This document shows, in pieces, positions 8,516 through 13,785 of a stretch of DNA of 14,427 nt (positions within the stretch are counted from its first letter, which is position 1; every line of letters begins with the position of its first letter). The notes under the pieces were generated by a model. That model saw nothing but the letters and a program-made list of their open reading frames with translations, had not been told where the DNA came from and searched no databases. The position numbers and the translations under genes are program-made. The stretch comes from an uncultured Lachnospiraceae bacterium (GTDB taxonomy: Bacteria; Bacillota; Clostridia; Lachnospirales; Lachnospiraceae): positions 1-14,427 of the forward strand of contig USKC01000043.1 in NCBI GenBank assembly GCA_900555195.1, written 5' to 3'.

Positions 8516-8544
8516 GCATAAAATTCTTCGACCTACAGATACTA
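8516..8544 (+). promoter_or_regulatory. Sigma-G/sigma-F-like promoter of spoVT
   Basis: GCATA (8516-8520) and GATACTA (8538-8544) are separated by 17 bases. They resemble the forespore sigma-G/sigma-F -35 (G-x-ATA) and -10 (CATACTA) elements. The promoter sits 42 bases before the spoVT start codon. In Bacillus subtilis spoVT is transcribed by sigma-G, so motif and position support each other. Confidence 0.6.
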
Positions 8545-8586
8545 TTCCAAGAAACGGAAAGTATAGCAAATGGAGGAACTTCTTAT

Positions 8587-8658
8587 ATGAAAGCGACAGG
8601 AATAGTCAGGCGGATAGACGGATGCGTTATAATAGGACAAAGTCGGAAAGCCGCATAA
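8587..8658 (+). pseudogene. spoVT: 5' fragment of spoVT, interrupted after codon 11
   Basis: SpoVT is an AbrB-type forespore transcription factor. Its usual opening in Clostridia and Bacillus is M-K-A-T-G-I-V-R-R-I-D-D-L-G-R-V-V-I-P-K. Here an ATG at 8587, with GGAGG (8572-8576) ten bases upstream, encodes MKATGIVRRID, identical to that opening. It then diverges to GCVIIGQ and stops at TAA (8656-8658) after 23 codons. No sequence for the remaining roughly 155 residues, including the GAF-like domain, occurs in the window. The location after pth and mfd matches the Bacillus gene order, so this is probably the native gene and not a stray copy. Mobile-element genes follow, making element insertion the simplest explanation. 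The retained V-I-I after the break may be chance or part of an attachment core. Confidence 0.8.
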
Positions 8659-8755
8659 ATACTGGGGTTTCGCTGATTTCGTCCAAAATGTCAGAGGGTA
8701 AATCCCTGCGACTGTCTACTGAAAATCAAACTAGAAAGAGAGGTGGATGGCCGAA

Positions 8756-8775
8756 CGGCATATTGCAATATGCCG
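8756..8775. repeat. 20-bp perfect palindrome
   Basis: CGGCATATTGCAATATGCCG is its own reverse complement with no spacer. It lies about 380 bases upstream of parA, in the only sizeable gap of the partition operon's upstream region. Perfect two-fold symmetry suits a dimeric DNA-binding protein, such as a ParB centromere site or an operator. As RNA it could fold into a hairpin. Confidence 0.85.
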
Positions 8776-8799
8776 ATACAATTTGATGAAACTGCGTAA

Positions 8800-8838
8800 G
8801 GGACTAGCGGGAACTTTCCATCCTGCTGGTCCCTTTTT
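8800..8838 (+). terminator. Strong intrinsic terminator before the par-rep operon
   Basis: GGGACTAGCGGGA (8800-8812) pairs with TCCTGCTGGTCCC (8821-8833) over 13 positions, using G-U pairs, around an 8-base loop. TTTTT (8834-8838) follows. It ends the leader-like RNA and also blocks read-through from the chromosomal genes into the element, unless it is conditionally opened. Confidence 0.88.
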
Positions 8839-8891: not shown

Positions 8892-9104
8892 ATGAAACAG
8901 GGTGTTTTAGTTTTTGATGAGGAATATGAAAGGATGGATATCCGGTTTGATTTAAACGATTATTATGGAGGATTACACTGCGGTACACCAATGGATGTTT
9001 TGGTTGGAAATCGTTGGATTCCCACTAGGATCGAATTGGGAAATGCTTGGTATTTGGTAGGGATAAGAACTTCAGAACTAACGGGATTGCGCGTGCGGAT
9101 TTAA
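8892..9104 (+). CDS. DUF5348-type small protein
   Basis: The 70-residue product has no known biochemical role. Its sequence (VFDEEYERMDIRF, then YYGGLHCGTPMDVLV, WIPTRIELG and WYLVGI) resembles what I recall of DUF5348 proteins, which are small, probably beta-rich and common in mobile elements of Clostridia. The ATG at 8892 is chosen over an in-frame ATG at 8847 because AGGAGGAG (8878-8885) lies 6 bases upstream. The family pattern also begins at M-K-Q-G. It has no membrane segment or signal. It is the first gene of the par-rep operon, 52 bases before parA, and follows a terminator, so its expression may depend on read-through or a promoter I could not find. Family assignment is from memory. 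Confidence 0.78.
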   Translation: MKQGVLVFDEEYERMDIRFDLNDYYGGLHCGTPMDVLVGNRWIPTRIELGNAWYLVGIRTSELTGLRVRI

Positions 9105-9156: not shown

Positions 9157-9933
9157 ATGAGCAAGACGATTATAGTTGCCAACCAAAAGGGAGGCGTTGC
9201 AAAGACAAGTACAGTGCGTAATCTGTCTTATTCCCTTGCTGAATTGGGAAAACATGTTTTAGCGGTAGATTTTGATCCGCAGTTTAACCTGACTACAAGC
9301 TTTGGGATAATGCAGAAAGAAATCCGTCATACAACGGGAACGCTGATTACCAGCATGCTTATGGAAGAGGAATTGCCGAATAAGGGAGAATACATACAGC
9401 ATATTGGTAAGGTGGATTTGTTGCCCTCAAGCAGAATGCTGACTGTCGCGGAGGTAAACTTATTGATGACACCTGATAGTGACGATTACCTCACTTCGCT
9501 TCTGTCACCATTAAAACAATCTTATGATTATATTATTGTAGATACCAATCCGTCTCTGGGTTCCCTGACAATTAATGCGTTGACGGCGGCCGATGAAGTA
9601 ATCATACCGATTGATCCGGAACTGTTTGCGCTCACAGGTTTACAAGCTTTACTAGATACGATTAAAAAAATCAAAAAGAAATTAAATCCAGAAATAAAAG
9701 TACGCGGTATCCTTTTTACCAAATGCAATAATCGTACTCTTTTATATGCCAGGACTTATAAACAGGTCGTTGAAAGTTTTCAATCATTACCGGTTTTTCA
9801 TTGCCAGATTCCTAATACGATAAGGGTGGGCGACGCAAACAGTTATGGTATGAGTGTTATGGAGATGGACAGAATGAACCCAGCCGCGATAGCATATATG
9901 GAATTGGCGAAGGAGGTGATGGAAAATGGCTAA
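9157..9933 (+). CDS. parA: ParA/Soj-type partition ATPase
   Basis: ParA ATPases bind non-specific DNA when ATP-bound and, with ParB, position replicons for segregation. The 258-residue product has the deviant Walker A KGGVAKTS (11-18, with signature Lys11 and catalytic Lys16), the A' motif VDFDPQ (37-42) and the Walker B strand YIIVDTNPS with Asp near residue 129. Ala15 replaces the more usual Gly, a change often seen in Firmicutes. There is no N-terminal helix-turn-helix extension, so it is the short Soj/type Ib form and is unlikely to repress its own operon. AGGAGGAG (9147-9154) precedes the ATG. Its 3' end overlaps parB by 8 bases, which indicates coupled translation. The protein helps maintain the excised or plasmid form of the element. 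Confidence 0.94.
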   Translation: MSKTIIVANQKGGVAKTSTVRNLSYSLAELGKHVLAVDFDPQFNLTTSFGIMQKEIRHTTGTLITSMLMEEELPNKGEYIQHIGKVDLLPSSRMLTVAEVNLLMTPDSDDYLTSLLSPLKQSYDYIIVDTNPSLGSLTINALTAADEVIIPIDPELFALTGLQALLDTIKKIKKKLNPEIKVRGILFTKCNNRTLLYARTYKQVVESFQSLPVFHCQIPNTIRVGDANSYGMSVMEMDRMNPAAIAYMELAKEVMENG

Positions 9934-10936
9934 AAAAATACCAAGGATAAGATCTATGGATGAACTTTTGGGGTTGGAAGATGCGGAACAAGAATTCTCA
10001 GAAGAGACAGGACAAGGAGTAAAAGAAAACAGAGTCGAATACCTGTCTCCGGCCTCAATTCGGATGTTCCGAAGCCATCCTTTTCATTTGTATGAGGGTG
10101 ATAGACTGAAAGAACTTGTGGAAAGCATTTCCCAAAATGGAATCTTAGTTCCTGCCATTGTGCGGAAGATTGAACCGGACGAGAATGGATACTGCTATGA
10201 AATGTTGGCAGGCCACAACAGGCAGCAAGGGGCAATGATTGCAGGATTGGATAAAATTCCATGTATTGTAAAAGAGGGGCTATCCGATAAGGAGGCGTGG
10301 ATATATGTAATAGAAACAAATGTAATACAGCGTTCTTTTACAGAATTATGTCCTTCGGAGAAAGCGGCTATTTTATCCGTCCGATACCAAAAAGTGATTT
10401 CTCAGGGAAAAAGGAATGATATTATAAAAGAAATAAAGAGGCTTGAAAACGGATGGGATGAGGACGGGGAAACCACCTGTGGAAATGAGTTCCACAAGTC
10501 TCGAGATACTCTTGGCGCTGAATACGATCTTACAGGGCGGATGGTAGCAAATTATCTGCGTATTAATGAATTACTTCCAACTCTAAAAAAACGAATAGAT
10601 AATGGAGAAATTACCTTATCATCTGGAGTGAATTTATCTTATTTGTCAGAAGAGGAGCAGGGGATTTTAGAACATATTCTGAGCGAAGGTGTATGCAAAA
10701 TAAATTCACGAAATGCAGTATTGCTGAGAGGCAGCCATGGGAAATTAACGGATGAATTAATGCGGGAAATTCTGATTGGAAACAGAAATGTAACTGTTGC
10801 AAAACCGATTACATTCAAAATAAAGCCTGCCATCTATCAAAAATATTTTACAGACAAAATCAGTCAAAAAGAGTTTGATAATATTATAGATCAGGCTCTA
10901 TCCCTTTACTTTGCGGAAGGCAAAACAGCAGAGTAG
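9926..10936 (+). CDS. parB: ParB/Spo0J-family partition protein
   Basis: ParB binds centromere-like sites and stimulates ParA. The 336-residue product has a ParB N-terminal domain (about 36-118): HPFHLYEGDRLKELVESISQNGILVPAIVR, then YEMLAGHNRQQGA. These are followed by the ETNVIQRSF helix (130-138) and a central helix-turn-helix (about 195-217, EYDLTGRMVANYLRINELL). The CTP-binding GERR box of chromosomal ParB is GHNR (96-99) here, a variant common in element-encoded ParB proteins. An insertion rich in charged residues (170-195) separates the N-domain helices from the HTH. The start inside the end of parA and the shared operon make the pairing secure. The 20-bp palindrome at 8756-8775 is a candidate target but is not shown to be one. 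Confidence 0.92.
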   Translation: MAKKIPRIRSMDELLGLEDAEQEFSEETGQGVKENRVEYLSPASIRMFRSHPFHLYEGDRLKELVESISQNGILVPAIVRKIEPDENGYCYEMLAGHNRQQGAMIAGLDKIPCIVKEGLSDKEAWIYVIETNVIQRSFTELCPSEKAAILSVRYQKVISQGKRNDIIKEIKRLENGWDEDGETTCGNEFHKSRDTLGAEYDLTGRMVANYLRINELLPTLKKRIDNGEITLSSGVNLSYLSEEEQGILEHILSEGVCKINSRNAVLLRGSHGKLTDELMREILIGNRNVTVAKPITFKIKPAIYQKYFTDKISQKEFDNIIDQALSLYFAEGKTAE

Positions 10937-10958
10937 GAATGGCTTGGAGAACCAGAAG

Positions 10959-12188
10959 ATGAAAGAGATGCTGTTGGACTATTTTTATGGAACACAAGCG
11001 GAACAATTTAACTTTTATAGGCTTCCAAAGATTCTCATAACGGATAAGCGGTTTCAAGGAATATCCAGCGACGCTAAGATCCTATATGGCATTATGCTTG
11101 ATAGGATGTCTTTGTCAATGAAAAATAAATGGATAGATGAAGAAAATAGGGTGTATATCATTTTTACTTTGGAAGATGTGATGGAAACATTTACATGCAG
11201 CGAAAGGAAGGCAAGCCGTCTATTGAATGAACTGGATTCCAGAACAGGAATTGGTCTGATTGAAAAGAGACGTCAAGGACTTGGAAAACCGAATATCATT
11301 TATCTGAAAAATTTTATTTCAGAACAGGGGATAGCCGTTTCTGCAGGAAAGAAAGAAGGTGAAAATGAACAACGTAGAGACTGCCAGATTGTACAACTTC
11401 AGAATAGCCAAATTTGGCAACTCTGCGATAAGAAAAAAGAAGAGGGCAGAGACCAGATATCTGCGTATACGCCGGTTGAAGGGAATAAACAAGAGCAGTG
11501 TCAGATAAAAGAAGATAAAAGACAAGAATCAAGCGAACCTCCTATTATGGAAGCGTCTTCTCAGAGTGGCCAAATTTGGCAACTCAAGAGTTGCAAGATT
11601 AATCCTGTAAACAAAATTCAGGAGAAGAGCTTGTCTGTATCTTCTTCAAAAGATGCTCAGAATGGTCAAAAATGGCAGATCCAGAATAGCCAGAATAGAC
11701 TACTCCAGAGTAGCCATAATTTACTGACTAATAAGACTGATAATAAAAAAACTGATCACAGTAAGATGGATACTATCTATCCATCGTTCCATCTTTCTAA
11801 AAGTGATCTTTCATTTGAAGATTATGAGCAGCTTATTAGAAAGCAAATTGAGTATGACTATTTAAAAGCAGATTGTAGAAAAGGGGATGAAGCTTGTCTG
11901 GATGAATTGGTAGAAATTATAGCTGAAACCCTCTGTATTGTGGATGATTCTATTAGAATCGGGAATAAAAACTATACTAGTGATGTTATTCGGAATAGGT
12001 TTATGCGATTAGATGCTTCGCATATTCGGTATGTGATGGATTGTCTGCATAAAAATACGACCAATATCAAAAATATCAAGGCTTATCTGCTCGCTGCATT
12101 GTTGAATGCGCCGTTAACAATTGATAATGCATATAGATCCCAGGCCAACTATGATTTATATGCTGCGGATGAATCATCTATACATTGA
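10959..12188 (+). CDS. RepA_N/DUF6017 replication initiator
   Basis: This is a plasmid-type initiator that would bind iterons and start replication of the element. The 409-residue product has an N-terminal RepA_N winged-helix domain: YGTQAEQFNFYRLPKILITDKRF (about 10-32), SSDAKILYGIMLDRMSLS, then VYIIFTLEDVMETFTCSERKASRLLNELD and GIGLIEKRRQGLGKPNIIYLKNF (to about 120). A polar, glutamine-rich linker (about 125-280) and a C-terminal DUF6017 domain (about 285-395, with IRNRFMRLDASHIRYVMDC and IKNIKAYLLAALLNAP) complete it. The ATG at 10959 has GGAG (10946-10949) 9 bases upstream and is preferred to an in-frame TTG at 10911 that lies inside parB. The linker is encoded by 24-bp repeats giving 8-residue copies such as SQIWQLCD, which may be the origin itself. 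It is the last gene of the par-rep operon. Confidence 0.92.
   Translation: MKEMLLDYFYGTQAEQFNFYRLPKILITDKRFQGISSDAKILYGIMLDRMSLSMKNKWIDEENRVYIIFTLEDVMETFTCSERKASRLLNELDSRTGIGLIEKRRQGLGKPNIIYLKNFISEQGIAVSAGKKEGENEQRRDCQIVQLQNSQIWQLCDKKKEEGRDQISAYTPVEGNKQEQCQIKEDKRQESSEPPIMEASSQSGQIWQLKSCKINPVNKIQEKSLSVSSSKDAQNGQKWQIQNSQNRLLQSSHNLLTNKTDNKKTDHSKMDTIYPSFHLSKSDLSFEDYEQLIRKQIEYDYLKADCRKGDEACLDELVEIIAETLCIVDDSIRIGNKNYTSDVIRNRFMRLDASHIRYVMDCLHKNTTNIKNIKAYLLAALLNAPLTIDNAYRSQANYDLYAADESSIH
11383..11736 (+). repeat. 24-bp iteron-like repeats inside the rep gene
   Basis: Units of 24 bases begin at 11383, 11407, 11569, 11665, 11689 and 11713, with a poor copy at 11593. They share a core like GCCAAATTTGGCAACT followed by an A/T-rich tail ending AGAATA. 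Two clusters are directly tandem (11383-11430 and 11665-11736). All keep the same codon phase and encode degenerate 8-residue repeats in the initiator's linker. RepA_N plasmids such as pSK41 carry their origin within the rep coding region, so these are candidate initiator binding sites. Protein-level repetition alone is the alternative. Confidence 0.7.
11569..11594. repeat. Nested palindromes at the centre of the iterons
   Basis: GCCAAATTTGGC (11569-11580) is a perfect 12-bp palindrome and also occurs at 11407-11418. It overlaps a second inverted repeat, GCAACTC-AA-GAGTTGC (11579-11594). This symmetry inside a coding region is not required by the protein sequence and marks a likely protein-binding or strand-opening site. 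Confidence 0.7.
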
Positions 12189-12296: not shown

Positions 12297-12821
12297 ATGA
12301 ATAATGGGAAAGAAGAAAAAAAGAAATCTATCTACCACGATACATGGATGCTATTAAAAAAGTACCGAGATGTTGTATGGAGCCTCGAATTGTCCGTTCA
12401 GCAAGTGCGTAACAGATTTCAGATAGAATATGGCAGTACAGTAGACGAATTCCTTGATTCAATTTATTGTGCCGGCGCTGATATTGGGGGGAGTGATATA
12501 GAATATCATGCTAGGAGTATTGAACGAAGTAGAAATATGCTTAGACTTTTGGATTCTTCGATCGATTTACTTCGTAAAAAACACAAATATGGCGAGGATT
12601 ATTACTGGGTATTGTACTATGCGTTTCTTTCTCCCCAAAAGCTCCAGAACGTAGAAGAGATTATAGAAAAATTACATTCTCATATCCGAGATATTAGTAT
12701 ACGAACCTATTATCGTAAACGCAAAGAGGCGATTGAAGCGTTAAGTTCAGTTCTGTGGGGATATACATCTAAAGATAGTTTGGATGTGCTGGAACATTTT
12801 TTCCCTGAGCATGAATTTTAG
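12297..12821 (+). CDS. Uncharacterised protein with regulator-like C-terminus
   Basis: I do not recognise this 174-residue protein with certainty. It is hydrophilic, with no membrane segment or signal, and is mostly helical. It starts with a lysine-rich MNNGKEEKKKS. The C-terminal third (about 115-155) reads LQNVEEIIEKLHSHIRDISIRTYYRKRKEAIEALSSVLWG. This resembles the DNA-binding end of ArpU/RinA-type and sigma-70-region-4-like regulators (a turn, then R-T-Y-Y-R-x-R-x-E-A-I-x-x-L-x-x-x-L-W-G). A role in transcription control of the element is therefore a reasonable guess. The ATG at 12297 has GGGAG (12284-12288) 8 bases upstream. It stands alone between a hairpin and a bidirectional terminator, converging on the leftward genes. 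It belongs to the AT-rich element DNA. Confidence 0.75.
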   Translation: MNNGKEEKKKSIYHDTWMLLKKYRDVVWSLELSVQQVRNRFQIEYGSTVDEFLDSIYCAGADIGGSDIEYHARSIERSRNMLRLLDSSIDLLRKKHKYGEDYYWVLYYAFLSPQKLQNVEEIIEKLHSHIRDISIRTYYRKRKEAIEALSSVLWGYTSKDSLDVLEHFFPEHEF

Positions 12822-13291: not shown

Positions 13292-13360
13292 CTAATTTTT
13301 CTTTAAACATGGAACCCCGCCCAATTTCCAGGCAGGGTTCCATGTTTAAAGGAAAATTAG
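13292..13360. repeat. 30-bp inverted repeat overlapping a stop codon
   Basis: The arms 13292-13321 and 13331-13360 are complementary at 28 of 30 positions around a 9-base loop. The core is TTTAAACATGGAACCC on one side and GGGTTCCATGTTTAAA on the other. The right arm contains the TAA stop (13357-13359) of the leftward sigma-like gene. Neither outer side carries a clear T run, so it is an imperfect terminator. It may act as a terminator, an RNA 3'-end stabiliser or a palindromic repeat unit. Confidence 0.85.
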
Positions 13361-13785
13361 AATTCTTTCTTCAGTTTTCTTAAAATCTTTTCTTTCCGAT
13401 TTATAATTGTTTTTCTGGATACCCCCTTTCTCCTTGCAAACTCTGCAGCTGAAATATCTTCATAAAACAAGGCATAAATTAGTTCCAGTTCACTATCCGT
13501 TAGGCACATCAAAGCTTTCCTCAGCTTTTCCTTTAGGAGTTCTTGCAAAACGAATGTTTCTACATCTGTTGTGTCCTGGAAAAAATAACCTTGGTCGTTT
13601 AAAGCATCTATAGAAATTTCTCTTGGGGGCATTTTGATGTATTCTCCGCTTTGCGCATCCTTATAAGTTCTTCCATATTTTAAATCACTCATAAAGTAAC
13701 GTTCTTTACGGAGGCCTTTATAATATGTATAGTAGACATCTTCTGAAACTTCTATTTCTATTCCATTTATCTTGATAATGTACAT
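13357..13785 (-). CDS. Sigma-70 region-4-like regulator of the element
   Basis: The 142-residue product resembles short sigma-70-like proteins of Tn916/Tn1549-type conjugative elements. The N-terminal part, MYIIKINGIEIEVSEDVYYTYYKGLRKERYF, matches their conserved opening (a short strand pair, then V-x-E-x-V-Y). The C-terminal part (about 80-142) is a region-4-type helix-turn-helix: LLKEKLRKALMCLTDSELELIYALFYED, then SAAEFARRKGVSRKTIINRKEKILRKLKK. Such proteins probably direct or modulate transcription of transfer genes. No region 2 is present, so it may not be a full sigma factor. The ATG at 13785 is chosen because GAGGT lies 7 bases upstream; the open frame extends to 13986, but that extension crosses a terminator and has no family similarity. 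Its stop lies within the long inverted repeat at 13292-13360. Confidence 0.83.
   Translation of the reverse strand: MYIIKINGIEIEVSEDVYYTYYKGLRKERYFMSDLKYGRTYKDAQSGEYIKMPPREISIDALNDQGYFFQDTTDVETFVLQELLKEKLRKALMCLTDSELELIYALFYEDISAAEFARRKGVSRKTIINRKEKILRKLKKEF

Follow-up and report, generated by a model that had tools for sequence, protein, structure and literature searches.

The start of spoVT in this DNA raises the question of why a sporulation gene should stop after eleven codons, to what kind of element the genes behind the break belong, and what becomes of spoVT when that element leaves. The window analysed here, i.e., the whole stretch of 14,427 nucleotides, carries in its 5′ part pth and mfd, then lrgA, lrgB, and a GH78 alpha-L-rhamnosidase gene, upstream of the spoVT start. 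The first-pass annotation had called this the pth-mfd-spoVT order of Bacillus, which holds loosely, as lrgAB and the alpha-L-rhamnosidase gene intervene between mfd and spoVT. Its placement of a sigma-G-like promoter, a ribosome binding site, and MKATGIVRRID ahead of the break was borne out by the coordinates and by the regular-expression matches compared with shuffles. After codon 11, the frame continues as GCVIIGQ where spoVT has DLGR, and the following features were assigned to the spoVT start (ATG at 8587):

8516 to 8544, plus strand: sigma-G-like promoter of spoVT, GCATA-N17-GATACTA, 3′ end 42 nt before the ATG
8572 to 8581, plus strand: spoVT ribosome binding site region, GGAGG at 8572, read from the sequence
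8587 to 8619, plus strand: spoVT 5′ fragment, codons 1–11 (MKATGIVRRID), by comparison with intact relatives

The arrangement GCATA-N17-GATACTA upstream of the window spoVT is one that we take to be sigma-G-like, judged against the sigma-G consensus. A sigma-G-like regular expression matched 16 of 24 spoVT upstream regions (window included) vs 0.5% of shuffles, i.e., a promoter-like motif upstream of spoVT exceeds chance expectation. The expression is not sensitive, because it missed the spoVT promoter in 8 of the 24 upstream regions, including those of G127 and G345.

Close relatives with an intact locus, with which a comparison had been proposed, were found at three loci carrying intact spoVT (L002, L003, and L028); their sequences run an identical course to the window through ATAGAY and are divergent thereafter. 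In Candidatus Eisenbergiella merdavium (L002) and Candidatus Eisenbergiella stercorigallinarum (L003), the order is pth-mfd-lrgA-lrgB-GH78-spoVT with an intact spoVT start, and mfd identity between the window and the Eisenbergiella relatives with intact spoVT is 86%; the L028 locus shows the end of lrgB, GH78, and spoVT. Because L002 and L003 share the gene order, the fragment in the window is the native spoVT locus and not a stray duplicate. The original description of a spoVT start broken at codon 11 and followed by mobile-element genes is hence confirmed by a native locus in which homology ends at codon 11.

Of its own element, the window covers the initial 5.8 kb, with genes for a DUF5348 protein, ParA, ParB, RepA_N, a sigma-70 region 4 protein, and two further proteins of no clear family, among them:

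8892 to 9104, plus strand: DUF5348 protein, 70 aa, first element gene (PF17295, 9.5e-27)
9157 to 9933, plus strand: ParA-type partition ATPase
9926 to 10936, plus strand: ParB-type protein
10911 to 12188, plus strand: RepA_N / DUF6017 replication initiator-like protein
12297 to 12821, plus strand: 174-aa element protein, family search without match
13357 to 13776, minus strand: sigma-70 region 4 protein; five other elements (L134-L138) encode homologues near RepA

No near match to the element DNA of the window was found among phage or plasmid records, the ParB protein as a probe of genome contigs gave no match, and the RepA loci inspected (L053-L082 and L133-L138) showed no spoVT junction.

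Five further left ends were located at exactly spoVT codon 11, in the genomes G012, G345, G127, and G332 and in IMG/VR contig 2897530398. G012 was recovered with a junction-spanning DNA query; its spoVT ends at the same codon and is followed by a homologous left end, where the DUF5348 protein is 63% identical to that of the window and lies in the same place. The junction in G345 is identical and was found by a DUF5348 search of 397 Lachnospiraceae genomes, in which the spoVT junction was absent from 29 of 30 DUF5348 loci; DUF5348 occurs mostly within other elements. The host context in G345 is unlike that of the window, with tRNA-Ala upstream and no pth, mfd, or lrg match nearby. The 64,246-bp contig IMGVR_UViG_2897530398_000009 contains both junctions; over the 3′ part, its SpoVT and the L002 protein share 45% identity.

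LSR3, the recombinase adjoining spoVT, had some match in 303 of the 397 Lachnospiraceae genomes. Among the 30 LSR3 loci listed, all four with at least 45% identity (G345, G127, G332, and G408) continue into spoVT at the same codon, and the other 26 (at most 41% identity) do not run into spoVT within their short flanks. In these four genomes, the TIGR02851 match to spoVT begins only at position 8 or 9. Left halves of the elements were also located in G127 and G332, and none was found in G408. A right-end pattern requiring TTGACA matched 3 of 392 genomes of the order (G345, G652, and G594). Beyond 6 of the 12 right ends collected, a full-length SpoVT frame follows without stops (G345, G127, G332, G408, G652, and the IMG/VR contig), and a contig end lies at or close to three others (L184, L185, and L252). 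The right ends of G594 (L257), L183, and L186 were observed to run into only 24–57 codons starting DDLGR, after which a different frame follows; a short spoVT-like paralogue or decay of the target may lie behind this. In-frame starts precede the spoVT 3′ half in G345 and G332; separate expression of this half was set aside because no ribosome binding site is visible at these starts by reading. The prediction that the far end would hold the 3′ half, with its orientation unchanged and a recombinase beside it, thus came true in the related elements wherever that end was readable, the neighbours being serine recombinases.

An intact second spoVT, which the first-pass annotation had named as evidence against its reading, was absent by TIGR02851 from all five interrupted genomes (G012, G127, G332, G345, and G408). 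Within the genus, the same profile matched 12 of 13 genomes, 11 of which have exactly one match above the cut-off; it matched nothing in G012, whose assembly contains no spoVT 3′ half. One further genome, G015, was considered as interrupted and rejected: two of its contig ends overlap to yield a consistent intact spoVT, and it was therefore taken as an assembly break. That an intact spoVT lies elsewhere in the same genome, the fragment in the window being a chimera of the assembly or a stray duplicate, is highly improbable given the native gene order, the single above-cut-off match in those 11 of 13 genomes of the genus, and an identical junction in the independent assemblies of the five further left ends, the genomes searched being those of relatives and of other carriers.

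The far end of an element was read in G345, in which both spoVT halves lie on one contig and on the same strand (5′ part ending near C1 105,989; 3′ part at 43,149-43,664), separated by an insert of ~62.3 kb. Three large serine recombinases are encoded in tandem beside the spoVT 3′ part (Pfam assignment for two). Families were scanned for 18 of 48 selected ORFs, which yielded the transfer genes for a T4SS coupling protein, a VirB4-like ATPase (TraG P-loop), and a MobA/VirD2-type relaxase, as well as an NlpC/P60 protein, a topoisomerase, an ImmA-like peptidase, and a PemK-like toxin; a group II intron reverse transcriptase also lies within the element (L124:6856-8670). Because relaxase, coupling protein, T4SS ATPase, and integrase occur in one integrated element, the G345 element is an ICE. 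A row of genes at L125:5459-17322 (PAPS-reductase-domain protein, 1401-aa protein without family, DUF7862-7864 protein, BrxL, and class V aminotransferase) looks like a phage-defence cargo island. An element-encoded recombinase was seen in the related elements, and the window stops short of that region; as only the left 5.8 kb is visible, we infer that the remainder of the window element, i.e., recombinase, transfer genes, and the spoVT 3′ half, is like that of G345.

Comparison of the ends placed two further features in the window:

8617 to 8618, plus strand: GA dinucleotide common to left and right ends, proposed crossover core (6 left vs 12 right ends)
8628 to 8633, plus strand: TATAAT, proposed -10 half of an excised-circle promoter (6 left ends compared)

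With GA as the proposed crossover core, the window element would begin at or near 8619. When the flanks were joined in silico, they read MKATGIVRRIDDLGR, and the frame was exactly restored in 4 of 4 paired elements (G127, G332, G345, and the IMG/VR contig). At the left ends, TATAAT (5/6) or TATATT (1/6, G127) always stands 9 nt after GA, and at the right ends, TTGACA stands six nucleotides before GA in 12/12; these hexamer counts are not independent, because the elements share ancestry. Since five right ends (G652, G594, L184, L252, and the IMG/VR contig) and one left end (the IMG/VR contig) had been found or placed with patterns requiring the hexamer, the unbiased counts are 7/7 on the right and 5/5 on the left. 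The joined ends of all four paired elements give TTGACA-N17-TATAAT (or TATATT) reading into the left-end genes, which amounts to 12/12 promoter matches in three elements and 11/12 in G127, compared with best matches of 8–9/12 at attL (6 elements) and 7–9/12 at attR (4 elements) in the integrated junctions. Among 60,001 random 80-mers of the same composition, a score of 12 was reached by 5 and a score of at least 11 by 65 (a slight undercount from the pre-filter), and a perfect promoter site occurred 3 times in 576,110 strand-bases of 16 loci. The conservation of TTGACA and TATAAT may be due to recombinase binding rather than promoter formation. A search of IMG/VR for excised circles returned 55 pattern matches, all of them unrelated-looking by eye (~40 nt flank).

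We consider it probable (roughly 80%) that the element in the window is an ICE, seen here from its left end, that uses spoVT codon 11 as its attachment site and whose excision would rebuild spoVT and assemble a promoter on the circle. This reading draws on sequence, namely on the insertion, the shared codon, the far end in related elements, and the restoration of the frame. In the proposed course of events, recombination at the GA core would most likely be the work of the recombinase next to spoVT, and excision would rebuild spoVT and simultaneously join the right-end TTGACA to the left-end TATAAT. A consensus promoter, by sequence match, would then be present in the excised circle only, where it would read into the DUF5348 gene and the genes for replication and partition. 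As long as the element is integrated, the host would be without intact spoVT and the left-end genes would be without the joined promoter.

Between spoVT and the first element gene, two further features were noted in the left leader:

8671 to 8685, minus strand: left-leader motif TGGACGAAATCAGCG, also present at the start of the first-recombinase 5′ leader of related elements
8798 to 8835, plus strand: terminator-like hairpin with T tail

The hairpin is weak, because shuffles average 0.7 such structures against the one found. The 15-nt motif recurs inverted at the start of the first-recombinase leader (sites L250:1115, L255:8945, and L174:6370). The two copies are exact in the IMG/VR contig and share an extra A in G345, and in G127 the left-side copy has two mismatches; with as many as three mismatches allowed, the motif was not found in the available pieces of G332 and G408. 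Possibly, this motif is a shared operator or an RNA contact or switch. The leader of the first recombinase folds with its ribosome binding site in a stem in 6/6 elements (z -2.3 to -4.6). Pairing of the left leader with the recombinase leader of the same element scored above all 200 shuffles in the three elements that were comparable, and we considered that the left leader may act as an antisense to the recombinase leader; one match across elements is as good as the own match, the cross-pair in one element scoring above its own pair (51 vs 50), and the duplex energies lie only slightly beyond the shuffle minimum. A perfect 20-nt palindrome was also observed in this leader, at 8756-8775 of the window. 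Rfam gave no match in the leader of the window or in five further loci.

Among known systems, the circular form of Tn4451/Tn4453 is said, going by the title of Lyras and Rood 2000, to make a promoter for the recombinase gene. A large serine recombinase, a 2-bp core, and a circle-made promoter are what the spoVT element would have in common with Tn4451/Tn4453; the Tn4451 circle promoter serves the recombinase gene, whereas that of the spoVT element would serve DUF5348, replication, and partition genes, with the recombinases at the other end. TnpX of the Tn4451/Tn4453 type has a 2-bp target site, as given in the cited section (PMC3158075). Expression that depends on circularisation is described for ICEKp1, ICEclc, and Tn916; the part of the source cited here places the whole promoter of ICEKp1 and ICEclc at one end, upstream of attP, whereas the -35 and -10 of the spoVT element would lie in opposite ends (PMC13023037). 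The element gin, in gerE of Bacillus cereus ATCC10987, is 28.6 kb long, rearranges in sporulation, and restores its gene, and it is like the spoVT elements in being non-phage, in splitting a small sporulation regulator gene, in having three serine recombinases, and in exact gene restoration, as far as the cited part of that paper goes (PMC5595907). The same portion of text describes gin as different in other respects: it is without conjugation genes according to its authors and sits in a mother-cell gene, two of its recombinases are in an operon and the third is apart (three in a row in G345), and its rearrangement in sporulation is demonstrated, whereas excision of the spoVT element is predicted (PMC5595907). 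Skin in sigK, vfbin in spoVFB, SPbeta in spsM, and yin in yabG resemble the spoVT element as removable elements that split a sporulation gene and use a serine recombinase; in the cited part of the source, they are described as prophage or prophage-like with other target genes, and spoVT is not named (PMC10747680). No report of an element in spoVT was found among open-access titles and abstract starts, with subscription journals and bioRxiv preprints outside that scope; GerW is the subject of the only paper there in which spoVT and attB both occur.

SpoVT acts in the forespore, and what the insertion means for sporulation was read in three ways. One possible, tentatively held reading is plain disruption, in which the element lands on a conserved sequence in spoVT, the loss of SpoVT leaves its carriers with poor or no sporulation, and transfer is all that excision is for. 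G012, which is without the spoVT 3′ half and without spoIVA, is consistent with this, as are the three right ends that enter short other frames (G594, L183, and L186) and the behaviour of ordinary ICEs, which likewise excise and restore their sites; against it stand full-length spoIVA in 4 of 5 interrupted genomes and six intact spoVT 3′ frames. The same observations, i.e., full-length 3′ frames without stops and spoIVA (the only other sporulation gene searched), together with the retained promoter, ribosome binding site, and codons of the 5′ part, would suit a programmed gene-intervening element, in which sporulation switches on excision and SpoVT is restored when needed, as with skin and gin; we regard this as rather doubtful. 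A precedent is gin, which with likewise three serine recombinases does so in gerE, as described in the cited portion of its report (PMC5595907). Against programmed excision, the insensitive regular expression matched no forespore-type promoter in the ~400 nt that precede the first recombinase (five elements), G012 has neither spoIVA nor the 3′ part, the search for excised forms found none, excision in the forespore, where SpoVT acts, would pass to the spore, and the insertions may simply be recent. It is also conceivable, and in our view improbable, that excision takes place in the forespore, the joined promoter drives the replication and partition genes, the circle is kept in the spore, and reinsertion follows after germination. 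If true, this would be a gene-intervening element that travels through the spore in plasmid form, in contrast to those that disappear along with the mother cell.

Judged by sequence, the mode of action of the spoVT elements would resemble that of skin and gin, the split gene being one for a forespore regulator, for which no such report was found. With them, spoVT, a forespore regulator gene, would join the list of sporulation genes split by removable elements, and a conjugative element would appear as a sporulation-gene splitter in gut Lachnospiraceae. A promoter split between the two ends would give an ICE a simple means of registering its own state, integrated or excised. Because mother-cell-only excision would not help a forespore gene, either the circle passes through the spore or the carriers manage without SpoVT. 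In view of the subtilis work cited here (PMC5061766), the consequences for spore-borne dispersal of gut commensals could be large or small.
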